Assembly: GCF_027579695.1 (NCBI RefSeq)
Contig: NC_083586.1
Span: 1,527,001 to 1,591,000, forward strand
Length of the DNA stretch: 64,000 nucleotides
DNA from: Neoarius graeffei
Taxonomy: Eukaryota; Chordata; Actinopteri; Siluriformes; Ariidae
Direction of reading: 5' to 3'
Shown one piece after another: positions 5,021 through 26,000 of this stretch. Below the pieces are notes generated by a model, which made no database searches, was not told the origin of the DNA, and was given only the letters and a program-made list of their open reading frames with translations. The stretch's first letter is position 1, and every line of letters starts with the position of its first letter. Both the position numbers and the translations under genes were made by a program.

Positions 5021-5054
5021 CGGCTGCAGGCCGGATGGCCGCCCGGCCTGAGTC

Positions 5055-5384: not shown

Positions 5385-5389
5385 GTAGC

Positions 5390-6212: not shown

Positions 6213-6342
6213 AACTTCATTTTGAGTCCGGGGGGACTTTTTTCAAAAATATGACCAAATGAAGGTCAATTCCTTTCATTACTAGCAAAAGTTCATCAAA
6301 ATATGATACAGGGTATAGAGGTTGTAAAAAAGTTATAACCCT
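6213..6342 (-). repeat. Right terminal inverted repeat of the 1.3-kb transposon
   Basis: Inverse partner of 96-243. It ends GTTATAACCCT and is followed by the AATATACACT target duplication. Confidence 0.6.
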
Positions 6343-6348
6343 AATATA

Positions 6349-6520
6349 CACTCACTTGCCAGTGTAATCGGAACTTGTTCTTGATTTGACGATTCCTGTT
6401 CTTGGCTGCAGGAGTGGAACCCAATGTGGTCTTCTGCTGTTGATTGCTGAGCTGCTTTTCTGCTCACCGTGGTTGTAAAGAGTTGCTATGAGTTGCTATA
6501 TCCTTGCTAAAAGCACTAAA
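6349..6520 (-). mobile_element. Tc1-like transposon relic
   Basis: The word CACTCACTTGCCAGTGTAAT after TATA resembles the terminal repeat of a common fish Tc1 family. Downstream, the reverse strand carries a piece of its transposase region (GTGAGCAGAAAAG.., GGGTTCCACTCCTG..GCCAAGAACAGG). The two parts are fused by internal deletion and the copy is very short. The inverted-repeat transposon 96-6342 apparently inserted at this element's left tip. Confidence 0.55.
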
Positions 6521-8450
6521 CAAGTTTTCAATAAATTCATATACATCCCACTTTCTAAAGTCAAGATCCTGCAGAGTCTGAATTTTACAATGATATTTGT
6601 GTGTTAGCTTTTTGTAATCCACAGTGCTTTTACACAGTGAGGTGTGTTTTAGTGAAATGAAGTCATTATTGAGAATTTCTGATATATATTGGCCTGGTGG
6701 ATACACAAGTACAAATAGGAACAGCTATTACACATAATATAAAATTATACCTTTTATATATTTCCTTAAAAATGAGAAAATTGTCATGCTTGTGTGCAAT
6801 TTACTTTCAATGTTTCCTCTTTTTATAATAAACTGTTTATTTGTGAATTATTCTTAAATGCTTCAATATGTCTCAAGGCTTGTAAAAATACTTCTGCGAA
6901 CAAAGACTAAACAATGGGAGAAAAATCTTTCAGCAACATTGGTAACAGCCGAACATTGGCACCAGTTACCAGTTCTGTTCATACGAACTTTCATTTCTGA
7001 GAGGATCCATAAGCAAAACTCTTCTTTAACATAATGAGAGCATGAAAACTGATTGCATCATTGTCTTGATTCTTGGATTTTAAGTCATCCTTTTAATGTA
7101 CTACTTATATTTAATGAAAGTTTTTCAATGAAAAAATACTGTTTCACAAAAATGTTCAGTGATTCCTTGATGACTTCTGTTGAACGCGAGTTTGGATATT
7201 TGGGGTTTATATGCTTTTTTTCAGGGTTTTTTTTCATAATCTTTTTTTTATTATACCAACACAAAAGCTATACACTACAACAAAACAAAGACAAGAGACA
7301 AAGACAACAGTGCACAAACAATGAACACAAGATGTGCAATGAACCAAATGAATAGGTAGATTTTCAAAAGTACAAATTAAATCCTTAAGTGATTTATACA
7401 GTATCAGTGATTTGTATCAGGTTTTTTTTCTATTACAATTTTCTACACTGCAGAACAATACTGGAGACACCAAAACTTTGAAAAAAACATATGGAACACA
7501 CACAGAACTATGTGACATACAGTACAAAAAAGTTAAAAAAAAATTCCCACAGGAGTGACAGACTGCAGAAGAAACAAGGGGAAACAAAAATTAGAACAAC
7601 AGGGACAATAGAAAGAAAAGAGCAATGACAAAACCTACACAACACCTACACAACAATCGCAATACAAAAGAACAGTAAAAGATTGTGCAAAAACCCCATC
7701 ATCCCACCAGCCACCAGCAAAGCAGGCAGGGGCCCGATACAGACACAGCAACCACCGATGGGCCACATCACCGCCTCCAGGACCCCAGACAGACCAAACA
7801 CAGGGCAGCAAACGGGAGAGTAGAGCCGACACCAGTGTGCAGCTTTGTCCTCGAACTGCACTGCAACGACCTCATGCCATCTCTCCTGCACATCTAACAT
7901 TGTGTGTGTGAGAGAGAGAGACAAAGATTTTGATCATATAATCAAAATCTCCCTATTCTTTATTCAGTTTTTTATTTCACAATCTATTTTATACACTACA
8001 CACAGATCAAAACCTCTCTCTCTCTGTGTGTGTGTGTGTGTGTGTGTGTGCACTTATAAGGGAGATCATTATCCACTTGACACTGTGGATAACAGTTGAA
8101 ATAATCAAGACTGCATGATTGGGGGGTAACAGTGAAATGAGCGAGCACAGAGAACACATTTACCTCATTATTTAGCTTATTATTTGCTCATTCTTTCATG
8201 TGAACATTTGTTCATTTAATTAAAAACATGCTTGGAATAAAACAAATTGCCAACAACATAAAAGAGTTTCATTAATCAATTAGCACATTAGATATGTAAT
8301 GCTTCCAGATGATACTATCTATTATTTTAAACACTTTATATTTCATTAGATTTTGGTTCAAAAGGAACACCATGTGACCTTACCGACTGGATTTAGCAAC
8401 TACCATTGTTTATATCGGCAATGTGACTGCTCAGCTGGTGGCATGCTCTT
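6521..8450. other. AT-rich DNA, no gene recognised
   Basis: Open frames are short and show no conserved motif. The 80-codon reverse frame 6464-6706 runs into the Tc1 relic and I do not recognise it. 7240-7420 and 7640-7890 have skewed A/C-rich composition like repeat UTR sequence, unidentified. A dinucleotide tract lies at 8014-8050. Confidence 0.5.
8014..8050. repeat. (CT)n(GT)n microsatellite
   Basis: CT repeats to 8024, then GT repeats to 8050. Confidence 0.95.
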
Positions 8451-8523
8451 GCTGAAATAGCTCAGTAGGGAGAGCGTTAGACTGAAGATCTAAAGGTCCC
8501 TGGTTTAATCCTGGGTTTTGGCA
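8451..8523 (+). tRNA. tRNA-Phe (GAA), probably decayed
   Basis: A 73-nt cloverleaf. The D arm TAGCTCAGTAGGGAGAGC, the anticodon arm with GAA and the variable loop match eukaryotic tRNA-Phe almost base for base. The acceptor stem pairs (with G.T at two steps). The T loop reads TTTAATC instead of TTCGATC, so the near-invariant C of box B is lost. No CCA or clear T-run terminator follows (T-runs start only near 8575). The gene identity is sure; activity is doubtful. Confidence 0.75.
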
Positions 8524-8636
8524 CTGAGGAGCATGGTGTGTGTTCATCTAAACCTTTAACCAAGTTCTTCTTTGATTTTTTGCCAGGTCGCTGTCAGTAT
8601 ATGCCAGTAATTTGGTGGTGAAAGCAATCTGACCTC

Positions 8637-8708
8637 TGTTCCATGATGTAATAGTTAGCACTGTGGACTTTGATTCCAGTGATCTGAGTTCAAATCTCTG
8701 TAGAGCTT
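8637..8708 (+). pseudogene. tRNA-Gln (TTG) pseudogene
   Basis: A 72-nt match to tRNA-Gln: TTCCATGATGTAATAGTTAGCAC D-arm region, anticodon arm with TTG, and an intact GAGTTCAAATCTC T arm. The acceptor stem is damaged (TGTTCCA against TAGAGCT, with a first-pair and a sixth-pair mismatch). It lies 113 bases after the tRNA-Phe copy in the same direction, like a fragment of a fish tRNA cluster. Confidence 0.65.
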
Positions 8709-9097
8709 TTGTTTGCAGATTGTCTCAACTACAGGGTCCTTTTGGTCAAGCAAGCTGTCATGTCCCAAACCCTTTGTTTCCGTTAAAGTGCTAGTCTTAC
8801 GAAAATTACATTACCACTGGAAATTATACCTTATAATACTAGACATGTTAAATAGTTTACTGTCTAAATTGTATTTTAATATGAGACTGGGAACACGTTC
8901 TGTTTAGTTGGTAAAGTTTGGCTCTTTGAGTCTGCCATTACACGAACGCGTTCCTGGTAAGTTACTGTTCATTCAAAGAAGTGAAGTCATATGCAAAATG
9001 CTTGAAAGTTCGTGGCATTTCTGGCTTCGTCTGCTTTGCAAAGTGTAGCACATTTTAAACTTTTTTTTAAATTCCGCAACAAAACTAAAACCAAAGC
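8709..9097. other. No feature recognised
   Basis: No motif or open frame of note, apart from a weak D-arm-like word near 8905 that does not fold further. Confidence 0.5.
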
Positions 9098-9403
9098 ATG
9101 CCTCCTAAGGGGTGTGTCCTTCAAGGCTGTTCAAGTGTAGCCAATGAAAAAAGTAGAGTTTTGATCCATTGTAGCCCAAAGTCAGCAGGACACTTGCATA
9201 ATGAATGGGTTTGATTTGTACCAACAAAGAGAGGTAACTTCAAGCCGACAGGATGGTTTGGTGTCTGCTCCATACATTTTGCAAAAGATAAATTTGTGAG
9301 GCAGATTCACATAGAAGGATTTGATTGATGTCTGGTACGCGGAACAGTTCCTACGATCTGGAAACAAAAGTCAGAAGCGCCATCCCAAAGAGCTCACCGC
9401 ACA
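9098..9403 (+). pseudogene. THAP-type zinc-finger exon, two stops
   Basis: From the ATG at 9098 the frame reads MPPKGCVLQGCSS (two spaced Cys), then about 50 residues later GVCSIHFAKDKF (the Cys and His of the C2CH finger), then a GTVPTIW element matching the AVPTIF motif that closes THAP domains. TGA codons at 9212-9214 and 9326-9328 interrupt it. A GTAAGT donor follows at 9404, placed where a first THAP exon would end. THAP domains bind DNA and occur in P-element-type transposases and host regulators. With two stops this is a relic, and its parent gene is unknown. Confidence 0.7.
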
Positions 9404-9446
9404 GTAAGTGTCAAGCTTGCCTTTAACCTGTTGCTTGAATTTATGA

Positions 9447-9499
9447 GTTGTCCATCGACGTCACCAGACCCATTTTACTGGGGCACATGCCCCAGTATA
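9447..9499 (+). mobile_element. End of an hAT-like element, cut by a Tc1 insertion
   Basis: CATCGACGTCACCAGACCCATTTTA nearly matches the left end of the hAT element at 18393 (CATAGACGTCGCCAGACCCATTTTA). It is followed by the inverted words ACTGGGGC and GCCCCAGT. The Tc1 element sits at TA 9498-9499; similar sequence resumes at 11154. The far end was not located. Confidence 0.5.
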
Positions 9500-11153
9500 C
9501 AGTTAGGTCCATATATATTTGGACACTGACACAAATTTTGTTTTTTTACCTGTTTACTGAAACATATTCAAGTTATAGTTATATAATGGACATGGACATA
9601 AAGTCCAGACTTTCAGCTTTCATTTGAGGGTATCCACATTAAAATTGGATGAAGGGTTTAGGAGTTTCAGCTCCTTAACCTGTGCCACCCTGTTTTTAAA
9701 GGGACCAAAAGTAATTGGACAATTGACTCAAAGGCTATTTCATGGGCAGGTGTGGGCAATTCCTTCGTTATGTCATTCTCAATTAAGCAGATAAAAGGCC
9801 TGGAGTTGATCTGAGGTGTGGTGCTTGCATTTGGAAGATTTTGCTGTGAAGAAAACATGCGGTCAAAGGAGCTCTCCATGCAAGTGAAACAAGCCATCCT
9901 TAAGCTGCGAAAACAAGAAAAAAAAACATCTGAGAAATTGCTACAATATTAGGAGTGGCAAAATCTACAGTTTGATACAGCCTGAGAAAGAAAGAAAGCA
10001 CTGGTGAACTCATCAATGCAAAAAGACCTGGACGCCCACAGAAGACAACAGTGGTGGATGATCGCAGAATAATTTCCATGGTGAAGAGAAACCCCTTCAC
10101 AACAGCCAACCAAGTGAACAACACTCTCCAGGAGGTAGGTGTATCAATATCCAAATCTACCATAAAGAGAAGACTGCATGAAAGTAAATACAGAGGGTTC
10201 ACTGCACGGTACAAGCCACTCATAAGCCTCAAGAATAAAAAGGCTAGATTGGACTCTGCTAAAAAAAAAACATCTAAAAAAGCCAGCACAGTTCTGGAAG
10301 AACATTCTTTGGACAGATGAAACCAAGATCAACCTCTACCAGAATGATGGCAAGAAAAAAGTATGGCGAAGGCATGGTACAGCTCATGATCCAAAGCATA
10401 CCACATCATCTGTAAAACACGGCGGAGGCAGTGTGATGGCTTGGGCATGCATGGCTGCTAGTGGCACTGGGTCAATAGTGTTTATTGATGATGTGACACA
10501 GGACAGAAGCAACCGGATGAATTCTGAGGTATTCAGAGACATACTGTGTGCTCAAATCCAGCCAAATGCAGCCAAACTGATTGGTCGGCGTTTCATAATA
10601 CAGATGGACAATGACCCAAAACATAAAGCCAAAGCAACCCAGAAGTTTGTTAAAGCAAAGAAGTGGAATATTCTTGAATGGCCAAGTCAGTCACCTGATC
10701 TCAACCCAATTGAGCATGCATTTCACTTGTTAAAGACTAAACTTCAGACAGAAAGGCCCACAAACAAACAGCAACTGAAAACTGCTGCAGTAAAGGCCTG
10801 GCAGAGCATTAAAAAGGAGGAAACACAGCATCTGGTGATGTCCATGAGTTCAAGACTTCAGGCAGTCATTGCCAACAAAGGGTTTTCAACCAAGTATTAG
10901 AAATGAACATTTTATTTACAATTATTTAATTTGTCCAATTACTTTTGAGCCCCTGAAATGAAGGGATTATGTTTAAAAAATGCTTTAGTTCCTCACATTT
11001 TTATGCAATCATTTTGTTCAACCCACTGAATTAAAGCTGAAAGTCTGAACTTCAACTGCATCTGAATTGTTTTGTTCACAATTCATTGTGGTAATGTACA
11101 GAACCAAAATTAGAAAAATGTTGTCTCTGTCCAAATATTTATGGACCTAACTG
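9500..11153 (+). mobile_element. Tc1/mariner transposon, full length but dead
   Basis: Ends CAGTTAGGTCC and GGACCTAACTG are inverted and flanked by TA (9498-9499, 11154-11155). The inverted repeats extend through TTTGGACA / TGTCCAAA. Length 1654 bp. It carries one transposase gene with frame breaks. Confidence 0.93.
9858..10900 (+). pseudogene. Tc1-type DD34E transposase, frameshifted
   Basis: Cut-and-paste transposase. The N-terminal helix-turn-helix starts MRSKELS at 9858 and shifts frame in the A-run near 9910-9950 (stop at 9942-9950). A GRPRK-like hook lies around 10030. The second paired-type helix region runs from 10051 (VDDRRIISMVK..VSISKSTIKRRLHES). Another slip occurs in the A-run at 10261-10270. 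Catalytic residues are all readable: WTDETK near 10311, MDNDPKH near 10603 and LNPIEH near 10704, ending at the stop at 10898-10900. At least two frameshifts prevent expression. Both lie in A homopolymers. Confidence 0.9.
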
Positions 11154-11234
11154 TATATCTGCTGTGATCCAGTAAAATTTCCTGATCACATTTCAGAAAC
11201 AGTAATGTATTTGGCACTGCGGAATAACTGTATA

Positions 11235-11618
11235 CACTGTAAAAAATTGCAGCCTCATTTAGTCATGTCCACTTACTACCTCTCTTTAGCACAAAGAGCT
11301 CTGACAATTTTTGGATTTTGAACTCAACTTTATGAGTTTTAGAAAGTAAAACTTTTTGCTATCCATTGTGTTGACTATTTGAGAATTTCACAGATTTGTA
11401 TGTGTTGATTGAACTTGGGTTTGTAAGTCATCAGTTGAAAAAAAAGGAGAGGAAAAAAGGCAGGAAATTAAAACAGAGTTATTCATTGTGTTGACTATTT
11501 GGGAATTTGTCAGATTTGATTGAACTTGGGTTTGTAAGTCATCAGTTGGAAAAAAGGAGAGGAAAATAAGGCGGGAATGGGGGATGGGAGCTACAGAAAA
11601 AAACAACTATTTGCAGTG
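11235..11618. mobile_element. Possible MITE with internal 120-bp duplication
   Basis: CACTGTAAAAAATTG at the left and the inverse of CACTGCAAATAGTTG at the right match at 12 of 15 bases. No coding capacity and no clear target duplication. Confidence 0.35.
11361..11595 (+). repeat. Two tandem copies, 120-bp period
   Basis: ATNCATTGTGTTGACTATTT starts at 11361 and 11481. Both copies continue through TTGAACTTGGGTTTGTAAGT and GGAGAGGAAAA. Confidence 0.8.
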
Positions 11619-12497
11619 TCTTTAAGGCAACATTGAAGAATGGGAATACATTGCAGATAAGTCATCTTTCGAATTCTATCCAAAATATACACATTTTGCA
11701 GTAAACAAGAAGGGACTTCTTCCACCGGTGGAAGAAGACTATTTCCCTAACAATGGCCTGTTAAAATAAGCGGAGCAATACAACACTGTCTGAGTGCAAC
11801 TGGAAAACCGGATTGTCGAGAGACGCGTGAGTTTTTCATGCAGCATCAGTGCCAGATGAGTTTAATAATCTTTAATTCACTATTTTTCCATTAACCGTCG
11901 GTGCAGTAATGTAATAACAGTTACTATGTAGGTTGTGTTTTTTATTAGCAGGGAAAAGCTAAATTCGAGCCTTTGATTATAACCTAATGGCTTGGTGGCA
12001 TCTTTCATAATATTACCAAGAGCAGCAGTTGGTTTGTTCCTCACCTCAGTGAAATAACAGGCTTCATTATTACAAAGTCAATAAATCAATCACATTATAA
12101 TAATAGTAATAATAGCTTTTATACTAAATTATTTATCATGACTTATTCACAGCAATTTCTGATAAGACCAAAGCCCCTAATGCAGCAAAACCACTTATAA
12201 AACAAATGCAACATGAAATTTAAAGATTTAATGATTTATTTATTCGATTATATTTTTACAGACCAGAATGATTGATTTTTCATAATTCCATGAATTCTGC
12301 TGACAGTCTGAGTTGAAGACAGGTTCCCCATGTGAGGCTGAATGTAAAGCCAGGATGCTTCAGTAAGAATCAACAATCTGTCAGTAACAATGGTGACACT
12401 GTCATGTGGTGCTGTGGGCTGGAGCTTCATGAACCTTTATGATGTGAACATATCATAGTACAGAAAGAATACTTTCACTCAGCTGAGACCATTCATC
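11619..12497. other. V-gene upstream region, no other gene
   Basis: AT-rich. Contains a perfect 22-bp palindrome at 11716-11737 (half-site CTTCTTCCACC). The V-gene promoter should lie within the last few hundred bases; I see no certain TATA or conserved decamer. Confidence 0.5.
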
Positions 12498-12954
12498 ATG
12501 TTCACTGTTATATTCATGTGTCTGTGGCTTTCATTCGGTGAGTTAACTTTGACTTTTTGTTCTTGCAGAAATATTAAGCATTGAATTAGTGATTTATTCA
12601 TCTGTGTGGTGGGAAGAAAAATGAGAATGTGCATGCTCTCTTCTCCATGACAAGTGACTCCATGGCAGCTTCAATCAAGCCACTTTTCACTCATACAATT
12701 ATAGATGAAGGCAGTGATGTTACTCTGTCCTGCAGCTATAAATCAAGTGGTACAGGAAACTACCTGCACTGGTACAGACAATATCCAAAATCTAAACCTG
12801 ACTTCCTTCTTTTTATATCACAAAGTGGATATAAAAGTGACTCAATCCCACCACGTCTCTCTGCTGAAGTTGATGAAAAGAATAACCAAGTGGATCTGCT
12901 CATCTCCTCTGCTGCTGTATCAGACTCTGCACTATACTACTGTGCTCTGGAGCC
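12498..12954 (+). CDS. T-cell receptor V segment (TRAV/TRDV type), apparently intact
   Basis: Germline V segment. Exon 1 (12498-12537) encodes a hydrophobic leader starting MFTVIFMCLWLSF and ends in a phase-1 intron with donor GTGAGT. Exon 2 starts at 12669 after a CTCTCTTCTCC tract and AG; this acceptor restores frame (the AG at 12653-12654 does not). The V domain has Cys at 12731 (VTLSC), Trp at 12770 (LHWYRQYP) and a final DSALYYC with Cys at 12941. It ends CALEP before a recombination signal. No stop or frameshift is seen. After joining to J (or D-J) segments it would give the antigen-binding domain of an alpha or delta chain at the T-cell surface. The 23-type RSS fits both alpha and delta, so the locus name stays open. 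Confidence 0.85.
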
Positions 12955-12992
12955 CACAGTGACAGGAAATCCAACTGCACTGTACAAAAACT
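12955..12992 (+). promoter_or_regulatory. V(D)J recombination signal, 22-bp spacer
   Basis: Heptamer CACAGTG (12955-12961) is perfect. The spacer is 22 bp. Nonamer ACAAAAACT (12984-12992) differs from the consensus at the last base. It is the 23-type RSS read by RAG. Confidence 0.85.
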
Positions 12993-13013
12993 TTCACAAA
13001 GTTATGTTATACT

Positions 13014-13380
13014 AAGGCGGCACGGTGGTGTAGTGGTTAGCGCTGTCGCCTCACAGCAAGAAGGTCCTGGGTTCGAGCCCCGGGGCCGGCGAGGGCCTTT
13101 CTGTGTGGAGTTTGCATGTTCTCCCCGTGTCCGCGTGGGTTTCCTCCGGGTGCTCCGGTTTCCCCCACAGTCCAAAGACATGCAGGTTAGGTTAAATGGT
13201 GACTCTAAATTGACCGTAGGTGTGAGTGTGAATGGTTGCCTGTGTCTATGTGTCAGCCCTGTGATGACCTGGCGACTTGTCCAGGGTGTACCCCGCCTTT
13301 CGCCCGTAGTCAGCTGGGATAGGCTCCAGCTTGCCTGCGACCCTGTAGAAGGATAAAGCGGCTAGAGATAATGAGATGAG
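13014..13380 (+). mobile_element. tRNA-headed SINE, copy 1
   Basis: The head has box A (TGGTGTAGTGG) and box B (GGTTCGAGCCC). The body runs through TCCTCCGGGTGCTCCGG to a tail ending in GATAATGAGATGAG. Target duplication ATGTTATACT at 13004-13013 and 13381-13390. It landed 21 bases beyond the V-segment nonamer. The family name is uncertain; it resembles the V-SINE type common in fish. Confidence 0.9.
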
Positions 13381-13440
13381 ATGTTATACTGATCACTTGT
13401 CAAAGTTACATAATTCCAGATGATATAATATCAATGATAT

Positions 13441-13814
13441 CTCATCTCATTATCTCTAGCCGCTTTATCCTTCTACAGGGTCGCAGGCAAGCTGGAGCCT
13501 ATCCCAGCTGACTACGGGCGAAAGGCGGGGTACACCCTGGACAAGTCGCCAGGTCATCACAGGGCTGACACATAGACACAGACAACCATTCACACCTACA
13601 GTCAATTTAGAGTCACCAGTTAACCTAACCTGCATGTCTTTGGACTGTGGGGGAAACCGGAGCACCCGGAGGAAACCCACGCGGACACGGGGAGAACATG
13701 CAAACTCCACACAGAAAGGCCCTCGCCGGCCCCAGGGCTCGGCCCCAGGGCTCGAACCCAGGACCTTCTTGCTGTGAGGCGACAGCGCTAACCACTACAC
13801 CACCGTGCCGCCCC
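13441..13814 (-). mobile_element. tRNA-headed SINE, copy 2, opposite orientation
   Basis: Near-identical to 13014-13380 on the other strand. Target duplication AATATCAATGATAT at 13427-13440 and 13815-13828. It has a roughly 15-bp internal duplication just after box B (GGGCTCGGCCCC region, 13733-13757). Confidence 0.9.
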
Positions 13815-13828
13815 AATATCAATGATAT

Positions 13829-14003
13829 AATGAGTTAAAATAAATAAATGAGGAGTTAGATCGGTCAATAAAATATATATTCAGTGTGTCTTGGCTCGGT
13901 CTCCTGCTCCAGATTTATGTTCACACTCAGGATCACACTTTTTGGTTGCTAAGTACAATGATTTCGTAGATTTTTGTTGTTGTTGTTGTCAATGGCTTCA
14001 TTC

Positions 14004-14045
<42 letters not shown>

Positions 14046-14193
14046 TACTTTCAAGACTCATAATGGGTATTTTAGACTTTCCTTGCCAGTTACTGAGCTA
14101 TAGATTTAATAAACTCTACAAAGATCAACATACACTTGCATTTGTTGTCCTGCCTTAACCTGACCATAGTTTTCATTGATATCACTGTTTAAA
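13829..14193. other. V-gene 3' flank with (CA)n
   Basis: The first part is the paralogue of the window start. An (AC)n microsatellite fills 14007-14042. No gene. Confidence 0.6.
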
Positions 14194-14569
14194 GATCGTG
14201 ATGGCCAAATGAGACTTCGAAGCGCATATCAAGAATAAGGGGGCAGATGAAGCCCCGCTTTGAGGCTTTGCATCGTTGAGCAGAAAACCACATGAACCAT
14301 GATAAACAAGGCCTCGGTTGTGATTCCCTAAAAGGTTCATTACTCAGACTCTCATTCAGCAGACTTCACTAGCGACCTACTGCTAAGAGAAATGTACAGC
14401 ATGTTTAATTTCTACCACACGTCAATGTTCTGCCACTTTATATTATTATTTGCATGTACAGTAATTTGCACAATGTTCCATTTTAAAATAACTTATGTCA
14501 TCAGATTTTTTTTTTTTTGCTTGTTTGCTTTACTTGTTTGCCTGTATGTTATTTGGTATTGACCCTCTG

Positions 14570-14625
<56 letters not shown>

Positions 14626-14995
14626 TGTCTCTTTCTATGGATTTATGGTCAGTATAATTTTGTCTGCACAATAAAAAGGTGTACATAAACATTAAGGGAG
14701 TAAGCTTTGTGTTCAGTGCTTGTGTGATGGGACTGTGAGTGCTACTGCAGCCGTGCAGTGCACAGAGTAACTTTTAGGGGAACCTTTATTGATTTTTGTT
14801 GAGGAACAGATTTTTTTTCACTGTGTTTGGATTGAGGCGATTCCTTTTCTTAGAAATTCCCTCCCCAGCCTCACGTGGTTCCCTCACGTGGTTTTCTTCC
14901 GAACGAGCCATGCCTCGAGGCGGGGCTTCATCTGCCACGCCCCCTTATACTCGGCACGCCCTTCGGAGCCTCGGCTTCAGACGGCCATCACTATC
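14194..14995. mobile_element. Non-autonomous inverted-repeat element (~800 bp)
   Basis: GATCGTGATGGCC at the left pairs with GATAGTGATGGCC on the reverse strand at the right. Both continue through ATAAGGGGGC, CAGATGAAGCCCCGC and AGAAAACCAC for about 100 bases. An (AC)n tract lies at 14581-14622. No transposase; the 71-codon frames inside are not recognisable. No clean target duplication. Possibly hAT-related. Confidence 0.65.
14581..14622. repeat. (CA)n microsatellite
   Basis: Uninterrupted CA repeat of about 21 units. Confidence 0.97.
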
Positions 14996-15320
14996 GACCA
15001 ATAATTGCTGATTATTGTCTGTCTGTATTTTGTCACAGCATTAAATCATAATGTATTTTGTGTGTGTGAGCAGTTTAAGGACAGTTCCCCCATTTCCCCC
15101 TGATGAAGCGATCAGCCAGGATGTGCTTCTATCTGACACTTAAAGACATTGATTTGAATTAAAAAGTCTGCAAAGGGAATAAATCTGAATTAATAGTACA
15201 GATCTTTGGACGGATAATGAGAAAAGGTGTCATGAATTCAGTTATACTGTAGGTGTTTACATTTTTCCTAAACCTTTGTTTGTTAAAATTGCATTTTATA
15301 TACTCTATGTTAATATTTAT
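14996..15320. other. No feature recognised
   Basis: AT-rich single-copy-looking sequence without frames or motifs. Confidence 0.5.
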
Positions 15321-15640
15321 TTTTAAACCTTTATTTGTCATATGCACACTTCAAGCACAGTGAAATTCATCCTCTGCATTGAACCCATCTGAAGCAGTGA
15401 ACACATGCACACACACCCAGTGAGCAGCACCTTGCTCAATGGCACCTCAGCCCAAGGCCACCCCACATCAACCGAACTGCATGTCTTTGGATTGTGGGGG
15501 AAACCGGAGCACCCAGAGGAAACCCACACAGACAGAACATGCAAATTCCACACAGAAAGGCCCTCACCAGCTGCTGGGTTCAACCCAGAACCTTCTTGCT
15601 GTGAGGCAACCATGCTAACCACTACAACGCCATGCAGCCC
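15321..15640 (-). mobile_element. Third SINE, different tail subfamily, minus strand
   Basis: On the reverse strand it has the same tRNA head and GTGCTCCGGTTTCCCCCAC core as the 13-kb copies. After GACATGCAG the body differs, ending in TGACAAATAAAGG. Box B is eroded (GGTTGAACCC). No clear target duplication. Confidence 0.75.
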
Positions 15641-15655
15641 AAAGGGGCAAACATG

Positions 15656-15737
15656 CGACGAGGGTGGGATTCAAACCCATGCATGCACAGCACAATGGAT
15701 TAGTAGCCCATCGCCTTAACCTCTCGGCCACCTCGCC
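15656..15737 (-). tRNA. tRNA-Ser-like gene with ACT anticodon
   Basis: The reverse strand folds as an 82-nt serine tRNA: acceptor GGCGAGG with CCTCGTC, D arm GCCGAGAGGTTAAGGC, long variable arm, and T arm TGGGTTTGAATCCCA. It closely follows tRNA-Ser-GCT, but the anticodon (15702-15704 on the plus strand, AGT) is ACT. The T loop has T in place of the conserved C. Probably a relic or SINE-mobilised copy, since a SINE head ends only 16 bases away. Confidence 0.6.
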
Positions 15738-16019
15738 CACATTTACATGTGTGTTTATTCATTTTGTATGATGCAATGATCTTTGGTGTGTTAGTAACTC
15801 TGTCAAAGTCAAAACTCAGACTCATTAAAATATTTGTTGGAACATTATTGCTGTATATTTATTTAATAAGCCTGTTATGAAAATGTGAAAACTACATATT
15901 CAAAAATAAATCCGTCTAAAATGCTCATCTGAAGTCTGACTGAAAATGAAACTATAATCATTTGAAACCAATAGCAGTAAATTTTGTGCTCCTTTTCCTG
16001 ATCAGAGGCTAATTATAGG
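15738..16019. other. Spacer with a segment repeated at 17.35 kb
   Basis: 15958-16003 (TTGAAACCAATAGCAGTAAA and onward) recurs with few changes at 17347-17392. No gene. Confidence 0.6.
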
Positions 16020-16020
16020 T

Positions 16021-16046
<26 letters not shown>

Positions 16047-16051
<5 letters not shown>

Positions 16052-17191
16052 TGTTATTTTAAGAATTTTGACTTTTCCATGTTTTACCCCCCTAGAAATA
16101 TGGAGACGGTCCATCTATGTGGGAAAATGTCAAATTTTATTAAATTGAACCTTGCTAACCCCCCTGTACATACCCTCTGAAAGTTTCCATTCTTACAATA
16201 TGACAAAATACATTACAGTGCTGTTTGATATTAGAATGCTGCTTTTTTTTTAATGTGTTTTAAAGTTACTGATGAATGTGAACCTCTTCAGGTATGCCAC
16301 TAAGTACGACTACAACATTTTCAGTGCAGATGATCATTATTTTAAGGTAATAAGCTTAGTGGTAAGTAACCTTACATTCAAGTAAATTAAACATATGGTA
16401 ATTCTGCTCTTTTTCAGCAAGTTTTAAAGTTATTGATGAATGTCACACTCTTCGGTAATACCTCAAATATGAACTATTTTTAAGCACAGAGGATCATTAC
16501 TTAAGGTTACTAATTTAGTTTTAAGAACCAGTATGCACAAATGATTCATATCTGAATTATATCTCCCAATGTATAAATAGTCATTATTTGTATTCTTGCA
16601 GGTAAATAATGGCTTCTGTTGCAACATGGTCAAAAGCTAAGAAGATACTAGGTGTAGTAGAGTACATAGAGCAGGCTGAGTTCCCTTCTGGGATGCTTCC
16701 AACAGGGAAGGACATCATTCAGAATATGCTCTATCTGCTGCGGCCGAAGCATGCTGGTCAAGCACAGAGATCCAGGGATGCTGCTGCTCAGTTGCTGGCA
16801 CAACTTGTTCAAGAGCACTGGTTATTTTGTAACTTATACACCATCCACACCAGACATATAAAGAAGCGTCTCTTGAAACTTTATGGAGAATTTTTTACTC
16901 TGATTCAAACCTGTAAACAGAGACAAAATAAGGGTTTCTAACAACTCTTTTTGTGAGAAATAAATGTTATTACTGTGATTTTTGATGTTATATTAAGAGT
17001 TATTTCCGTTAAGGAATGCTTATATTAGTGAAAAAGGCGTTTTTTGACTATTTGGAGGGGTTATTAACTCCAGAGGGTATGTACAGGGGGTTAGCATTTT
17101 TCAGTTGGTCAAATATTGGTATTTCCATACTTAGATAGATCATCTCCATATTTTGGAGGGGGTAGAAAAAATTTTTGGTCTAACACCCCCT
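16047..17191. mobile_element. Inverted-repeat transposon (~1.15 kb) with its own small gene
   Basis: Left GGGGGTGTTA and right TAACACCCCC are inverted. The match continues through ACCCCCCTA/TACCCCCTC, ATATGGAGA and GCTAACCCCCCTGTACATACCCTCTG, about 145 bases in each arm. ATTATAGG (16012-16019) and ATGATAGG (17193-17200) may be an 8-bp target duplication, with a GT/G run between. Internally a 164-bp tandem pair starts at 16257 and 16421. One ORF (16609-16941) and an AATAAA at 16959 give it a compact gene. No DDE transposase. Confidence 0.65.
16609..16941 (+). CDS. Unknown 110-residue protein of an inverted-repeat element
   Basis: The ATG lies just after a TTCTTGCAG splice-acceptor-like word. 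The stop is followed 18 bases later by AATAAA. The protein is basic and helix-rich: MLPTGKDII at residues 29-37, a Q/A/L-rich helix (AAAQLLAQLVQEHW), then IHTRHIKKRLLKLYGEFF. I recognise no named domain and see no catalytic motif or membrane span. The order of DII, a basic turn, an L/H-W helix and a final K(L/R)LxK helix parallels the exon at 5670-6044. It may be a DNA-binding or accessory protein of the transposon; this is inference. It could be one exon of a longer gene, given the acceptor. Confidence 0.45.
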   Translation: MASVATWSKAKKILGVVEYIEQAEFPSGMLPTGKDIIQNMLYLLRPKHAGQAQRSRDAAAQLLAQLVQEHWLFCNLYTIHTRHIKKRLLKLYGEFFTLIQTCKQRQNKGF

Positions 17192-17199
17192 CATGATAG

Positions 17200-17670
17200 G
17201 ATTGGATCAAAACACAGTAAATGAATCATTACATAATGCTGGTTTGGGCCATAAACCTGTGTTTTGTACAAATCTTTTATTTCACTCCTTTTGAAGAAAA
17301 GTCCAACTTTATTCACGGATAATAATCCACAAACCACAACAAAATGCATTTGAAACCAATCGCAGTAAATTCTGTGCTGCTTTTCCTGATGGTAGAATAA
17401 TTATTGGACTCGGACTGATGGGTTCGGAACCAAACAAAACCGCTTCCTCATAAAGCAACGCGGTGGAACAGAAAGACTTCACCGGCCAATCAGGCGGCAC
17501 TTTCCTCATGAATATTCATGATTTCCCCGCCCACCTCGCTGAAATTGAAAGGTGTTTGTGTTTAAATGTTCGGAAATCCCCACAAAACGGTCATTTGTAG
17601 AAGCGGCGAGATCAGGATCCCAGCAGCGACTCTGACACCACTGGGTTTATTCCCGCACCGGCAGCAATGA
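17200..17670 (+). promoter_or_regulatory. Promoter-like region with CCAAT boxes
   Basis: CCAAT at 17356-17360 and 17486-17490, a palindromic ATGAATATTCAT near 17510 and moderately GC-rich sequence resemble a vertebrate promoter. The segment with the first CCAAT box is repeated at 15958-16003. What it drives is unclear; downstream lies the LINE reading frame. Confidence 0.25.
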
Positions 17671-18392
17671 ACTCTCAGTTTTCCTTTTCACTGCAACAAC
17701 AAGCGCTTTAAACACCTCATTATTACAAAAAGGGTCAAAAATAGCAGTGAACAGGCGGAAACGCTTTCAGGAATAGAGTTAACGCTCATTTGTGAGCGGG
17801 ACAGGCAAAGTGCAGCCAGGTACTCTTTCTTTATTTCTTCCTGTGCTGACGACAATGTTAGTGAGCTGACCAGTGACGATGAATCTTTGTCAGAGGATTC
17901 TACATCTACTGATTACCTTAAGGATCAATTGGACTTTTCTAACGACGATAGTTTATATGACGAGCAATACTTCGACCTTGGTCTTGGATAAAAGGGATTG
18001 CGTTTCGGATCACGGAATGTCGATGGGCTCACACTAGCAAAATTTGAATAGATTCGATTGTTCATGCTGGACAAATTCCATCGTCCTCAGATCGATATTT
18101 TATCGATAAACGAATCCGCTTTGAAGCCTAAGATTCCTGATTCGCTTTACACTGTGCCAGGATTCGACATTCATCGCAGAGATCGCAAGGGGATCAAGAA
18201 AAAGGGCGGAGTTCTGGTGTATGTGAATCGAGAGTTGAAACACAGAGATTTAGAGGATTCAAATGTTGAAGCTGTCTGGTTGGAAGTGTATCCCTTCAAG
18301 TCAAAGCGACCACTTTTATTTGGGGGTGTTTATCGACCACCATCTTATTTAAGGGAAGATGACGAACGCCTCGAAAAGAACATTGCGTGCGC
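17671..18392 (+). pseudogene. LINE N-terminal acidic region and endonuclease, first part
   Basis: Frame 1 is open from 17671 to TAA at 17989, includes the satellite-unit peptide, then a strongly acidic stretch (SDDESLSEDS near 17875, DLGLG at its end). After the TAA the same frame enters the endonuclease: GLRFGSRNVDGL (N motif), TAG at 18049-18051, then ILSINESALKP (the catalytic Glu), IHRRDRKGIKKKGGVLVYV and LLFGGVYRPPS. APE-type endonucleases nick target DNA to prime reverse transcription. The ORF is cut at 18392 by the hAT insertion. The acidic composition suggests real coding sequence rather than chance. Confidence 0.75.
17792..17838 (+). repeat. Isolated copy of the 60-bp satellite unit
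   Basis: GTGAGCGGGACAGGCAAAGT then GCAGCCAGGTACTCTTTCTTT is essentially identical to the core of the array that starts at 23081, over about 45 bases. It stands alone 5.2 kb upstream, between an unrelated left flank and LINE coding sequence. In frame 1 it reads ERDRQSAARYSFF, the frame of the following acidic region and endonuclease. Confidence 0.85.
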
Positions 18393-19268
18393 CATAGACG
18401 TCGCCAGACCCATTTTAGGGTAGCTCCAGCCACCCTATCTTATGGCAAAGCCACCCTATATTTTTTGCCCTTTTTTAAATTATTTATATTTTTATTTTTT
18501 TTCCCCCCAAAAAAAAACAAAGGCAGTAAAGCACTGAACATGAGCCATCAAGAACGCAAGTTAATCCGAACAACAGTTTCTGCTTGCTTATTTATTGTTT
18601 AATGCAATATTATTAATATCGTTATGATTCCTCCTCATTGGCTCTGTGTCAAGCGTCACGTCGAGTGGTAGGCTAGTAGGACTTAAAAAACTACGCGGGC
18701 ATTCTGCAGCAGGCGCGGTGCGGGCTTCCATTGAGTTGGGTTTGCAGAGAGTCAGAATTCTATGCTTTCATTTGCAGACACACACGGTGAGATTGTAATT
18801 TAATGTCAGTGGTTCGCATTTGCTTAACTTTACCTAGGCTATATTGAGCAATGGGTAGTGAGGAAAGGCGATATTGTAGCTTTTCTATTTCAACTGTAAA
18901 TCTGGCACGTTAGCATGGTGAACAAACTTACTAAGCTGTGTGGGTTGTAGCCTACTAGCATTAGTTTTGGCATGGGAAAAGATTATCTGTCTGTCTATCC
19001 TTTGGCTAGATGGATATACGAAGATTTTTTAAGAAAGGGAGTCTGGTGAAGTTGCTTCAGCAAGCAATTAAATGATGAAAGCAATTTTAAAATAGAATAG
19101 AAATGGTGGGAAGTGTGTCCCCAAGGTGTGATGCTCTTGAAATAATGAATTGATTGACAGCCTTAGTAGGTGCTCTGAAAAATGTTCGGCGCGCGCTGCG
19201 CGCGCACAATACCTTTTCTCCTCTGGGTGCTAAGCTACCCCTGTCTCTCAAACCTAGTGACGTCCCTG
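18393..19268. mobile_element. Non-autonomous hAT element in the LINE endonuclease
   Basis: Ends CATAGACGTCGCCAG and, on the reverse strand, CAGGGACGTCACTAG. An exact 8-bp duplication GCGTGCGC lies at 18385-18392 and 19269-19276. The 876-bp interior has no transposase. Joining the flanks restores the endonuclease frame order. Confidence 0.85.
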
Positions 19269-19276
19269 GCGTGCGC

Positions 19277-19708
19277 TAATCTTCTAAATCTAGAGACGAT
19301 TCTTACTGGGGATACCAACATGAATTATCTCGCTTCTTCGTCTTTCAAGAAACATTGTTTGGTTCGTACTTTGACGAGTATGAATTTTAAGCAACTAGTC
19401 ACTATGGTAACAAGGCCAATTAGCAAAACCTGTCTGGACCATATCTTCACTAATTACTCTCAGCGAATCAGCTCCGTCGTTGTACACACGTGTGGCCTTT
19501 CGGACCACCTTCCGGTATTTGCTGTGAGAAAGTATGCATGCAAAAATCCAAGTCCATACAAGAGCTTTCAAACAATACGGTACCGTGACATGAAGCGACT
19601 TGATGAGGAAAAGTTTAAACAATCAATTCGAGAAGCCCCTTTGGGACGCTGCATTTGTATTTGAAGACATTGATGATGTAGTTCATGTATGGGAACAAAC
19701 CTTCAACT
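19277..19708 (+). pseudogene. LINE endonuclease, second part
   Basis: It resumes after the hAT duplication: LETILTGDTNMNYL (the GD.N motif), SKTCLDHIFTN, then GLSDHLPVFAV with the catalytic SDH motif near 19500. A frame slip around 19640 is followed by a stop. Reading is then broken by the element at 19709. Confidence 0.8.
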
Positions 19709-20814
19709 AGGGTGACCATTTCCATAACACCAAAAAGGAGGACATTATTAGGACGGGGGGTCTGGGGGCCCTCCCCCAGAAAATTTTGTATTTCTTAGAT
19801 GCAATTTCCTGCATTCTAATCAATTTTAGGGTGAATAATGGCAAATCCCATCTGATTCATAGCCCTCAAATTTTTATGTAAACCACAGTGGCAAGATTGA
19901 GACTGGATTATTTTTATGCAAGTCACTCAAGTTTGGTGAAATCAACATCGCAATTTTGTAGGGTTAAAGATTATGATTGTGGGGGAAAAAAGAGTAAGGT
20001 CAAAGCATTCATAATATTTATTATAATTCATATATTAGCTCTTAATTGGCTAGAACACACAGTATTTATATTTATTAAAAACATTGTGGAGTTAACAAAC
20101 CACTGAAATTAAACTTAAGGTGCTGAGTACCAAAAAGCACATTTGTAGATTCTCAAAGAACAAATAGGCAACATAACCAGCAACATTATAAAACGTTTTA
20201 AAGCATTCACAGTATTTATTATAATTCATGTATTAGCTCTTAATTGGCTAGAACACTGTATTTGTATTTATTAAAAACATTGTGGAGTAACAAACCACTG
20301 AAATTAAACTTAAGGTGCTGAGTACCAAAAAGCACATTTGTAGATTCTCAAAGAACAAATAGGCAACATAACCAGCAACATTATAAAACGTTTTAAAACA
20401 GTATATCATGCTTCAGTCTTTCAGTGTCTTCAGAATCCGTAGGTGTCTTTGTGTGTGTGAGAGAGAGAGAGAGAACAGTCAGACTCTTTGAAGTAGCCAA
20501 CAAGGCACTCGCCAGGAAGATCATCAAAGGATAGAGCACAACGCAACGCCTCGCGGTGCGGAGTTCGCATTGCATGCCAAAAAACATCGAGCCATAGACT
20601 CTTTATTGTAGATTACTAGTGTGCTGCACAGATCTGCAGTTTCCCTACAAAACGTTATTCTAGAACTCTGCTCTTCCTGTCTGGCAAGTCGATATTATAT
20701 AATTCCGCTCATCGTCTCTAAAAGGAGGACAAATGTGCGTCCGGCTTGATGCTACGCTGGACAAGACATTGAAAAGACGGACGGTCCAGCCTAAAGCCGG
20801 ACATCTGGCCACCC
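19709..20814. mobile_element. Second DNA element inside the LINE (~1.1 kb)
   Basis: TAGGGTGACCA at the left and the inverse of TAGGGTGGCCA at the right. The arms share GGAGGAC words. LINE reading continues beyond both ends. Flanks ACCTTC are shared, but a full target duplication is not exact. It contains a 198-bp tandem duplication and no transposase. Confidence 0.65.
20002..20397 (+). repeat. 198-bp tandem duplication
   Basis: AAAGCATTC starts at 20002 and 20200. The copies agree through TTAAAAACATTGTGGAGT and GCAACATTATAAAACG with only a few differences. Confidence 0.92.
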
Positions 20815-21190
20815 TACCTTCTTGAATCTCATTGTCCTTGGCGCAAAAAACGGGTCAAGCGTGAAACGCAGCCCTCCTGGATTACCAAGGCAGTTCTAAA
20901 AGAGCTACACTCTAGGGATCACTTATTGAAGGTGGCACGGCACACGGACAATCCAAATGGTTGGGCGAATTATCATCTAGCCAGGAACAAAGCAGTATTC
21001 ACTCTATGGGAAGCCAAGCGTGAGTTCTATTTGAAGTCATTCAAGGAAAACAGGAACATTACAAGTGCAATCTGGAAATGTATTAAAACTCTGACAGGCG
21101 CTAACAAGAACAATTGTGGGATAATAAAGCTTGAAATTGGCGAGAGTACTGTGAAAACTCTAAGGACATCTCGGAGCAGTTCAACGTGTA
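20815..21190 (+). pseudogene. LINE linker between endonuclease and RT
   Basis: Frame 1 reads KKRVKRETQPSWITKAVLKEL, then YHLARNKAVFTLWEAKREFY and NITSAIWKCIKTLTG, typical of the region before the RT in Jockey-superfamily LINEs. The frame shifts near 21150-21160. Confidence 0.75.
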
Positions 21191-22798
21191 TTTCTCAACG
21201 ATCGCCGACACATTGAGAGGTACTATGGCTCAGGCGCCATTTTGTCTTTCTAAACTTCTGAGCTATGTGAAATCATGGAAAGACCCGGATGTTTTATTCT
21301 CGGTTCCTGCTATAACAAGTACACAGGTTGCCCATATAATAATGATCAATCCAAACAAGGCCTCTGGTATTGACAAAATCAGTTCTCGTGTATTGCGAAT
21401 TGCTGCTCCTGCTATTGCACCGAGTATAGCAAAGCTGATTAATCTATCATTTTCTAGTGGAACATTCCCCCAAAGGTGGAAATTAGCCAAGGTTACCCCA
21501 CTATTTAAGAAAGGTGATCGTACTGATCCAAGCAACTTCCGTCCCATCTCGGTTCTTCCTGTCTTGTCCAAGGTCATTGAGCGGTATATGCATGATTCTT
21601 TGTATACCTATCTCAATGACAACAACCTTCTCTACTCCAGGCAGTCTGGTTTTAGGAAACATCATAGTACTGAAATAGCTTTAATCAAGATAGTGGACGA
21701 ACTCCTATTTAATCTTGACAATAATATGGTGTCGAGTTTGGTACTCGTGGACTACACCAAGGCATTTGACATGGTGGACCATGAACTGCTGCTACAGAAG
21801 TTGAAGGTGTACGGGGTTGTTGACAAAGAGCTGGCGTGGTGTTGTTCATATCTGTCTAACAGGCGACAGGTGGTACAAGTGGACGGTGAAGTTTCTTCGG
21901 AAATGCATATGGATTACGGAGTTCCTCAAGGATCTATACTAGGGCCGCTATTCTTCTTATTATTCATAAACGATTTGCCATTGCATGTTTCAACTCAAGT
22001 GGACCTTTATGCCGACGCCACCATTGTCTCTGCTGCAGCTGACGTCACCAATCTGCACCTTCTGAATGACTCTTTCAATATGTCATTAAGAGAGATTGAG
22101 TCATGGGCTAATGACAATAAGCTCTTCCTAAATGAGAAGAAGACAAAGGTCCTGACGATCACAGGCAAGCACCTTGCTTCGAAGACAAGTGTAGAACTGT
22201 GTGTTAAGGTGGGCAATAACGCCACAGCACTAGATAATGTCTCAAGTGCAACATTACTTAGACTTGATATAGATAGTGAACTTTCGTTTCACGAACATGT
22301 AGAAAAAATATGTAAAGTGGCCTCCCGTATTGCAATTCTAAGAAAAATAAGATCATTTTTGCTGTTAGCACAACGTAAACAATACTATAATGCCTTAATT
22401 CAACCAATCATTAATTATGGTAGTGCAGTATGGTCTGAGTGCGATAAAGAATGTCTAAATTGGATTCTTAAATTACAGAAGCGCGCTGCCAGAGTTATTC
22501 TTTTCGCAGAACCGCGAGCATCATCTGTGGAACTGTTTAATAGACATGGATGGATTCCAGTACACGAACAGTTTAAGATAAACAAATGCGATCTCGTTCA
22601 TAAGGGGATTTATGGTAACGTTCCTACCTTTTTAAGAGAGCAACTTGTTCTAAATAGCTACACCAACAAAAGATGCACGCGCTATGCTGATCAATCTACG
22701 CTGCCCAAAATACAGAAGGGAGACAAAAGGAGGGCGCACTTTTTCTGTTTCTGCTACCCGCCTTTGGAATACTCTCCCTCTCTCGACAAGGTGAATTG
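21156..22798 (+). pseudogene. LINE reverse transcriptase
   Basis: Motifs in order: NPNKASGIDKISSRVL, WKLAKVTPLFKKGD, NFRPISVLPVLSKV, GFRKHHSTE, VDYTKAFDMVDH (catalytic Asp), GVPQGSILGPLFFLLFINDLP and LYADATIV near 22005, then the thumb and a cysteine-poor C-terminus. The catalytic YADD box reads YADA, either a substitution or loss of one Asp codon. The last ~25 residues are out of frame with the conserved ending (frame slip near 22740). It is the enzyme for target-primed reverse transcription, inactive here. Confidence 0.9.
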
Positions 22799-23044
22799 AA
22801 CAGCTTATGCCCTTTAAGGAATCTCTCAGAGAGCGGGCGTTTTCTGAGCAGTGTCTTTTATATCATTTTGTAATATAATTTTATAATAATTTGTTTCTTA
22901 TTTATATATATTAATATGATTATCGTATTGTTTTTATTGTAATTTAGTGTAAAAAGTTTTTATAGTTTATATTGTATACATTTATTTTAGGGAGGGCCAC
23001 AAGTTTATTAGCATTGCTATTTAGTGTTACCCTCATTATAAATA

Positions 23045-23047
<3 letters not shown>

Positions 23048-23075
<28 letters not shown>
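23048..23075 (+). repeat. (CT)n tail of the LINE
   Basis: CT repeats follow AATAAAGT. The satellite begins a few bases later at CAGGCAAGCG (23081). Confidence 0.9.
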
Positions 23076-23076
<1 letters not shown>

Positions 23077-23080
23077 CACA

Positions 23081-26000
23081 CAGGCAAGCGAACGTGAGTG
23101 GGACAGGCAAAGTGCAGCCAGGTACTCTCTTACTTTTACAGGCAAGCGAACGTGAGTGGGACAGGCAAAGTGCCGAAAGGTACTCTTTCTTTTACAGACA
23201 AGTGAACGTGAGTGGGACAGGCAAAGTGCAGCCAGGTACTATTTTCTTTCTTCTACAGACAAGTGAACGTGAGCGGGACAGGCAAAGTGCAGTGAGGTAC
23301 TCTTTCTTTCTTTAACAGACAAGCGAACGTGAGTGGCACAGGCAAAGTGGAGCGAGGTACTCTTTCTTTGACAGACAAGCGAATGTGAGTGGGACAGGCA
23401 AAGTGCAGCAAGGTATTCTTTCTTTGACAGACAAGCGAACGTGAGTGGGACTGGCAAAGTGCAGCGAGGTACTCTTTCTTTCTTTTACAGACAAGCGAAC
23501 ATGAGTGGGGCAGGCAAAGTGCAGCCAGGTACTCTTTCTTTTACAGACAAGCGAACGTGACTGGGACAGGCAAAGTGCAGCGAGGTACTCTTTCTTTCTT
23601 TTACAGACAAGCGAACATGAGTGGGACAGGAAAAGTGCAGCCAGGTACTCTTTCTTTTACAGGCAAGCGAAAGTGAGTGGGAGAGGCAAAGTGCAGCGAG
23701 GTATTCTTTCTTTCTTTTACAGACAAGCGAATGTGAGTGAGACAGGCAAAGTGCTGCTGGGTACTCATTCTTTCTTTTACAGACAAGCGAACGTGAGTGG
23801 GACAGGCAAAGTGCAGCCAGGTACTCTTTCTTTCTTTTAAAGACAAGTGAACATGAGTGGGACTGGCAAAGTGCTGCGAGGTACTCTTTCTTCTATAGAC
23901 AAGCGTACATGAGTGGGACAGGCAAAGTGCAGTGAGGTACTCTTTCTTTGATGGACAAGCGAACGTGAGTGGGACAGGCAAAGTGCTGCGAGGTACTCTT
24001 TATTTCTTTTTCAGACAAGCGAACATGAGTGGGACAGGCAAAGTGCTGGGAGGTACTCTTTCTTTCTTTTACAGACAAGCGAACGTGAGAGGGAAAGGCA
24101 AAGTGCAGCGAGGTATTCTTTCTTTTACAGACAAGCGAATGTGAGTGGGACAGGCAAAGTGCAGCTAGGTACTCTTTCTTTTACAGACAAGCGAATGTGA
24201 GTGGGACAGGCAAAGTGCAGCGAGTTACTCTTTCTTTATTTTTCAGATCAGCGAACGTGAGTGGGAAAGGCAAAGTGCTGCAAGGTACTCTTTCTTTTAC
24301 AGACAAGTGAACGTGAGTGGGACAGGCAAAGTGCAGCAAGGTACTCACTCTTTCTTTTACAGACAAGCGAACGTGAGTGGGACAGGCAAAGTGCAGCCAG
24401 GTACTCTTTCGTTTACAGACAAGCGAATGTGAGTGGGACAGGCAAAGTGCAGCGAGGTACTCTTTCTATCTTTTACAGACAAGCGAACGTGAGTGGGAAA
24501 GGCAAAGTGCAGCCAAGTACTCTTTCTTTCTTTTACAGACAAGTGAACGTGAGTGGGACAGGCAAAGTGCAGCAAGGTACTCACTCTTTCTTTTACAGAC
24601 AAGCGAACGTGAGTGGGACAGGCAAAGTGCAGCCAGGTACTCTTTCTTTTACAGACAAGCGAATGTGAGTGGGACAGGCAAAGTGCAGCGAGGTACTCTT
24701 TCTTTCTTTTACAGACAAGCGAACGTGAGTGGGAAAGGCAAAGTGCAGCCAGGTACTCTTTCTTTTACAGGCAAGCGAACATGAGCAGGACAGGCAAAGT
24801 GCAGCCAGGTGCTCTTTCTTTCTTTCTTTTACAGGCAAGCGAACGTGAGTGGGACAGGCAAAGTGCAGCGAGGTACTCTTTCTTTCTTTTACAGGCAAGC
24901 GAATGTGAGTGGGACAGGCAAAGTGCTGCGAGGTACTTTGTTTTATGGACAAGTGAACGTGAGCGGGACAGGCAAAGTGCAGCGAGGTACTCTTTCTTTC
25001 TTGTACAGACAAGCGAACGTGAGTGGGACAGGCCAACTGCTGCGAGGTACTCTTTCTTTTACAGACAAGCGAATGTGAGTGGGACAGGCAAAGTGCAGCC
25101 AGGTATTCATTCTTTCTTTTACAGGCAAGCGAACGTGAGTGGGACAGGCAAAGTGCAGCCAGGTATTCTTTATTTCTTTTACAGACAAGCGAACATGAGT
25201 GGGACTGGCAAAGTGCAGCGAGGTACTCTTTCTTTCTTGTACAGACAAGCGAACGTGAGTGGGACAGGCCAACTGCTGCGAGGTACTCTTTCTTTTACAG
25301 ACAAGCGAACGTGAGTGGGACAGGCCAAGTGCAGCGAGGCACTCTTTCTATCTTTTACAGACAAGCGAACGTGAGTGGTACAGGCCAAGTGCAGCCAGGT
25401 ACTCTTTCTTTTACAGACAAACGAACGTGAGCGGGACAGGCAAAGTGCAGCGAGGTACTCTTTCTATCTTTTACAGACAAGCGAACGTGAGGGGGACAGG
25501 CAAAGTTGAGCGAGGTACTCTTTCTTTGACAGACAAGCGAATGTGAGTGGGACAGGCAAAGTGCAGCGAGGTACTCTTTCATTCTTTTACAGACAAGCGA
25601 ACATGAGTGGGACAGGCAAAGTGCAGCAAGGTACTCTTTCCTTTACAGACAAGCGAACGTGAGCGGGACAGGCAAAGTGCAGCGAGGTACTCTTTCTTCC
25701 TTTTGCAGACAAGCGAACGTGAGCGGGAGAGGCAAAGTGCAGCAAGGTACTCTTTCTTTCTTTTACAGACAAGCGAACGTGAGCGGGACAGGCAAAGTGC
25801 AGCCAGGAACTCTTTCTTTCTTTTACAGACAAGCGAACGTGAGCGGGACAGGCAAAGTGCAGCCAGTTACTCTTTCTTTCTTTTACAGACAAGCGAACGT
25901 GAGCGGGACAGACAAAGTGCAGCGAAGTACTCTTTCTTTTACAGACAAGTGAACGTGAGTGGCACAGGCAAAGTGGAGCGAGGTACTCTTTCTTTGACAG

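Follow-up and report, generated by a model that had tools for sequence, protein, structure and literature searches.

Insertions of 5′-truncated long interspersed nuclear elements (LINEs) into tandem repeats are known in general, and the locus described here, a stretch of 64,000 nucleotides of the fish Neoarius graeffei (the window; contig NC_083586.1, hereafter C18, positions 1527001-1591000 of a 2.34-Gb assembly that was searched as a whole), holds a LINE at the edge of a large satellite array with a 60-bp unit. A different relationship between the two kinds of sequence is represented by Tetris of Drosophila virilis, described in the accessible part of the report as a satellite built from transposon parts (PMC4079207). 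The surroundings of the locus recall instead the T-cell receptor (TCR) alpha/delta loci (TRA/TRD) of fishes, given in the portions of the sources available as 1,285 kb with 140 V genes in a single orientation in channel catfish (PMC8656973) and as 1.14 Mb with 239 TRAV in Atlantic salmon (PMC8559430).

With truncated LINEs in tandem repeats, the locus shares the truncated 5′ end, the simple-repeat tail, the pyrimidine-rich target and the later nested insertions, and nothing essential differs, no target-site duplication being recognisable here. With satellites of the Tetris type, as far as the accessible text describes them, it shares a common boundary between transposon and satellite, but the unit is here not part of the transposon. 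The most probable explanation, to which we assign a probability of about 0.95, is that the LINE inserted by chance into a pre-existing satellite, itself part of a duplicated block next to V segments of the TCR type; the link between LINE and satellite is in itself ordinary. The features concerned are the following (window coordinates):

14847-17791, + strand: genomic module present in repeated copies, which forms the left flank in two pieces (14847-16019 and 16058-17775, from blastn to paralogs), with a conserved 40-mer at 17716-17755
17792-17838, + strand: lone first satellite unit (GTGAGC...GGTACTCTTTCTTTATTTCT), the left side of the LINE target, from a core mismatch scan
17839-23075, + strand: 5′-truncated LINE, a non-LTR (long terminal repeat) retrotransposon, in pieces 17839-18392, 19277-19708 and 20819-23075, with a (CT)n tail at 23048-23075
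18393-19268, no strand assigned: hAT-like DNA element within the LINE, between 8-bp repeats GCGTGCGC at 18385-18392 and 19269-19276
19709-20818, no strand assigned: second inserted element within the LINE, about 1.1 kb, with ends AGGGTGACCA...TGGCCACCCT and an internal 195-bp duplication
23080-64000, + strand: 60-bp-unit satellite array, from Tandem Repeats Finder and core scan, continuing on C18 past the window

The 32-base core of the satellite unit is found as a single copy at 17792, with 1 mismatch (GTGAGC for GTGAGT), and next at 23094, the window holding 677 cores when up to 9 mismatches are allowed. As the same mismatch scan detects no core in positions 1-17700 or in the reversed window, the copy at 17792 is not a chance match. 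On the right side, the (TC)14 tail of the LINE occupies 23048-23075 and the array begins at 23080 according to Tandem Repeats Finder, with 4 bases between them. The left copy ends CTTTCTTTATTT(CT) and the right side resumes at ACAGGCAAGCG, that is, with successive parts of the repeating unit. Accordingly, reading of positions 17000-24500 together with the core scan bears out what the original prediction had described at this locus, namely a lone, near-perfect unit upstream of the LINE, an array starting within about 6 bases of the (CT)n tail and two flanks that are complementary parts of one unit.

The element is a non-LTR retrotransposon, putatively of the apurinic/apyrimidinic endonuclease (APE) type, with a reverse transcriptase domain (PF00078) in 21135-22796 (E 7.6e-27, 94.8 bits against a cut-off of 29.6); Exo_endo_phos_2 scores 26.1 bits against a cut-off of 27.4 (E 8.4e-06) in the one open piece tested, 19179-19661, from a region broken by insertions. 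Its 5′ region occurs at 5 places in the genome, window included. All four of the other copies align from exactly window position 17839, with 95.6-96.3% identity, and upstream of this point they continue as LINE, being 97-100% alike over 60-120 bases and 98-100% alike when the comparison is restricted to 60 bases (five pairs in each case), whereas the 60 bases preceding 17839 in the window match those of L010-L012, three of the loci carrying these copies, at only 22-23%. Since four of four copies go on as LINE without the unit, the window LINE is 5′-truncated and the unit before it is target DNA. The sequences of L011 and L012 remain common for about 320 bases further upstream and then diverge, which suggests that the true 5′ end of the LINE lies at this point; L010 and L013 diverge from both nearer to 17839. 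Truncation is also apparent from the numbers, as the 3′ end is present at 34 places (43 matches, window included; 40 of 44 candidates scored), against 5 for the 5′ region. Here and below, where only part of the candidates of a genome search was scored, the figures hold for the scored places.

The (CT)n tail is found at 6 of the 12 LINE 3′ ends that were read (window, L041-L044 and L051), the remaining six carrying other tails; because five of the eleven ends outside the window have it, the tail is the LINE's own and does not belong to the array. The satellite unit, in turn, is absent from all 15 other LINE loci read (L010-L013 and L041-L051; 13 copies, each match read together with about 1.5 kb of sequence to its left and right). 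C1, C4:36.1-36.4 Mb and C18:5.38 Mb, on which the satellite module lies, hold none of the 42 LINE 3′ matches outside the window (33 places). The view that LINE and large satellite are linked whatever their history is consequently valid for this one insertion and does not hold in general.

The LINE contains two further elements, both of which entered it after its own insertion. The first, of 876 bp, is bounded by the 8-bp target duplication of hAT elements (GCGTGCGC on both sides; the empty LINE copies have GAGTGCGC, which differs at one base). The corresponding empty site is seen in L010, L011 and L013, and the element, presumably non-autonomous, recurs at 39 other scored places (of 374 candidates) with 97-100% identity over about 18391-19000.

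The satellite without the LINE is found by following the left flank, whose longer module pieces are mostly 89-97% identical to their paralogs by blastn. For positions 17500-17800, 40 matches were scored among 123 candidates, and C1 holds 30 of the 40; outside the window, 19 related loci were read (L015-L033). At ten of these (L015-L018 and L028-L033) the flank passes straight into the array with no LINE in between, which provides array copies without the LINE, such as the original prediction had proposed to look for. Other sequence separates flank and array at L019, L022 and L023; in the remaining six the array is missing at that spot, with units further along in L020, L021 and L026 and none in the stretch read of L024, L025 and L027. 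Six of the ten LINE-less junctions (L028-L033) have their first unit at the same place and with the CTTTATTT variant of the window; as this variant stands there in an uninterrupted first unit, the LINE broke the first unit after the CTTTATTT tract. Of the two models put forward originally, the one in which the LINE inserted into the CTTT tract of a unit at the array edge is thereby supported, as it is by the abrupt start of LINE homology at 17839 in four of four copies.

The 40-mer of the module has 43 copies in the genome with up to 3 mismatches, 38 of which are exact. C1:18.49-30.39 Mb accounts for 38 copies, every one of them on the + strand, C4 for three and C18 for two; more diverged flank copies, detected by the 300-base flank search only, are present on C17, C18 and C20. 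The exact satellite core has 1856 forward and 26 reverse matches. The first 100 listed form 12 clusters on C1, nine of which begin 76-196 bp past a module 40-mer, seven of them at exactly 76. The window displays this very spacing, its 40-mer starting at 17716 and its lone unit at 17792. Since the clusters mostly start at a fixed distance past the 40-mer, window included, the satellite is anchored mostly to the module and not to the LINE.

The array itself is satellite DNA, a long head-to-tail series of similar units, and is longer than the 41 kb attributed to it at first. Specifically, it passes position 64000, reaches the end of the adjoining stretch L034 (C18:1601000) and is absent from C18:1611001-1621000 (L035), the 10 kb between not having been read, so that its total length is about 51-61 kb. 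In the window and L034 together 838 units were counted, with spacings (n=837) of 60 in 479 cases, 56 in 235 and 64 in 31; 793 of the 837 are multiples of four, because the CTTT tract varies stepwise. Subfamilies of units shift along the array, and duplicated blocks lie at distances of 3.8 kb (99.4% identity), 5.0 kb (98.0%) and 4.4 kb (97.4%), within an overall range of 3.8-20.9 kb, as expected under unequal exchange. At C4:36323000-36332999 (L039), another tandem repeat of about 6 kb, open in several frames on both strands, lies beside a diverged array of this satellite, itself located past a copy of the module.

Taken as a sequence of events, the satellite array was present first; such arrays typically start 76 bp past the conserved 40-mer of a module that has at least 43 copies. 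Reverse transcription of LINE RNA, probably target-primed, then took place at the pyrimidine tract of the first unit and left a copy truncated at its 5′ end. Later, two further elements inserted into the LINE. The length of the array shifts locally through duplication of blocks of units, for which unequal exchange is the likely cause.

A few observations do not sit easily with this course of events. The junctions of the LINE show no recognisable target-site duplication, and neither the CT on the left (about 2 bases) nor the CCAC on the right (4 bases) can be assigned to LINE or unit, so that the junction may contain a small deletion or filler sequence. In addition, the junctions without the LINE come from paralogs on C1, no LINE-free allele having been seen at C18:1.54 Mb itself. 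Finally, anchoring to the module is not universal, as 9 of the 19 flanks do not enter the array directly and 3 of the 12 listed core clusters have no upstream 40-mer (C1:17647740, +; C1:18379923, -; C1:18740575, -).

Of the other explanations, one would have the LINE at the array edge promote the growth of the array, for example by offering its (CT)n tract for slippage or exchange. The array is long here, with 838 units counted, and the LINE tail resembles the CTTT tract of the unit; yet the array at C1:22362962 spans at least 18.8 kb of core matches with no LINE match listed there, and the best-matching long duplication, at 63958-71479 in window coordinates, is more than 40 kb away from the LINE, so that a promoting role appears very improbable. 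We also give little credence to the idea that the unit is a splice-site cassette (pyrimidine tract and CAG, about 10 bases, then GTGAGT) under selection in an intron of the module. The order of the motifs would suit a 3′ followed by a 5′ splice site, but the donor G is only 85% conserved over the 838 units, which places it among the less conserved positions and fits CpG decay, and no coding exon was recognised beside the module in the stretches read; the cassette was rejected, as constraint is lacking. The second of the original models, by which the unit would be a promoter monomer of the LINE 5′ region and the monomers of a second, head-to-tail LINE would have been amplified into the array, accounts for a unit directly before the first base of the LINE and an array directly after its tail, but is refuted, and retains next to no probability, by the four of four other copies reaching 17839 with LINE sequence in place of the unit, by the lack of units at the 15 other LINE loci and by the satellite at module loci without LINE.

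An insertion into a pre-existing satellite of a duplicated block directs attention to what the block contains. The upstream neighbour of the module in the window is a V exon with its recombination signal:

12593-12958, + strand: TCR-alpha/delta-type V exon with a V-set domain (Pfam V-set, E 1.2e-16 for 12593-13012)
12955-12991, + strand: recombination signal made of CACAGTG, a 22-base spacer and ACAAAAAC, with the heptamer at +15 from the Cys codon

The arrangement, a V-set exon followed by a recombination signal sequence (RSS) of the 23 type, is that of TCR alpha/delta V segments, and, in the part of the source available, position 15 is the class to which nearly all expressed V elements in tra assemblies of zebrafish are assigned (PMC10322711). 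The signal is present in all six other V segments fetched (seven of seven with the window; spacer of 22 as counted to ACAAAAAC), including that of L070, where the Tyr-Tyr-Cys codons were not found as searched. When the protein structure database PDB was searched with the V exon, the best 60 of 9741 hits were mostly antibody fragments, with TCR and antibody not separated. The genome search with the exon (150 of 1510 candidates scored) placed 136 matches on C1:17.66-30.99 Mb, all on the + strand.

In the window, the V-set exon precedes the module 40-mer by 4.8 kb. Likewise, 26 of the 43 modules have a listed V of their own strand at most 15 kb upstream (3.3-13.0 kb), a share that depends on the 150 of 1510 V candidates scored and may differ from the true one. 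For the 17 others the nearest listed V is at least 37 kb away, one having none. On C1, 23 of 38 modules are near a listed V; 1000 random placements averaged 5.3 such modules and never exceeded 14. With a general signal pattern, 475 matches were obtained in the forward and 273 in the reverse direction, compared with 111 and 117 when the pattern was reversed. The first 100 in the list fall without exception within C1:17.59-21.80 Mb and on the + strand, and many of the 748 must be chance matches or belong to other receptor loci. The domain PF09291 of the TCR alpha constant region gave no match, but neither did its control, and a 12-RSS J-type pattern had no exact match on C1 among the first 100 of 461 places listed, in which exact ones come first. 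Separately, C2:102.67-103.86 Mb holds, among the matches listed, 91 exact and nearly identical signals of the 12 type, which share one strand, follow each other at intervals of about 4-51 kb and probably mark a cluster of the immunoglobulin type.

As far as the available portions of the catfish and salmon reports allow a comparison, the V-set exons with 23-type RSS, the near-identical duplicates and the uniform orientation of the listed C1 copies are shared with their TRA/TRD loci. The differences are that V-like segments extend here over about 13 Mb of C1, some ten times the length of those loci, that many of the repeated blocks carry satellite, and that the PF09291 and 12-RSS searches used revealed neither J nor C segments. 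On C18, the window resembles an orphon block of the C1 V cluster, and C1 itself is possibly a working TRA/TRD locus. A more tentative proposal, which we consider rather doubtful at present, is that C1:17.6-31.0 Mb would be one giant TCR alpha/delta V locus growing by the copying of a block made of V segment and satellite seed, in which the satellite, expandable to tens of kb, would give homology for unequal exchange and travel with V orphons to C4 and C18.

Other gene families were also considered as owners of the module. Outside the window, C18 has a C2H2 zinc-finger gene at about 1.64 Mb (L036:7924-9174; C18:1638924-1640174, - strand), and its N-terminal part was searched for in the genome (150 scored of 371 candidates), giving many matches clustered near contig ends; judged by eye, the listed relatives cluster elsewhere, one being near the module region (C1:30.55 Mb), and these genes were discarded. 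NACHT/NLR genes were also discarded by eye, with only C1:17.98 and C1:21.21 Mb nearby and both on the opposite strand (99 scored of 248 candidates). The same search revealed large clusters of NACHT-domain genes at C23:3.5-23.1 Mb, C2:118-126 Mb and C16:3.7-5.3 Mb. In the 9-kb stretch between two C1 modules (L066) no cellular gene was recognised, and its longer open frames look like transposon remnants, by eye and without a library search.

The remainder of the window contains a Gypsy-like LTR retrotransposon at about 444-5385, both ends of which repeat the same sequence (by eye), a Tc1-like DNA transposon at about 9500-11160 with a DDE_3 domain in 10226-10897, and three tRNA-like Rfam matches at 8451-8523 (+), 8637-8708 (+) and 15656-15737 (-).

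A tempting but false link is thus settled, in that the satellite was not made from the LINE. Interest moves to the module, which is repeated next to V segments of the TCR type and in which a fixed base often marks the start of a 60-bp satellite. Should the C1 cluster prove to be the working TRA/TRD locus, the idea that satellites drive the duplication of immune V genes could be tested well there.

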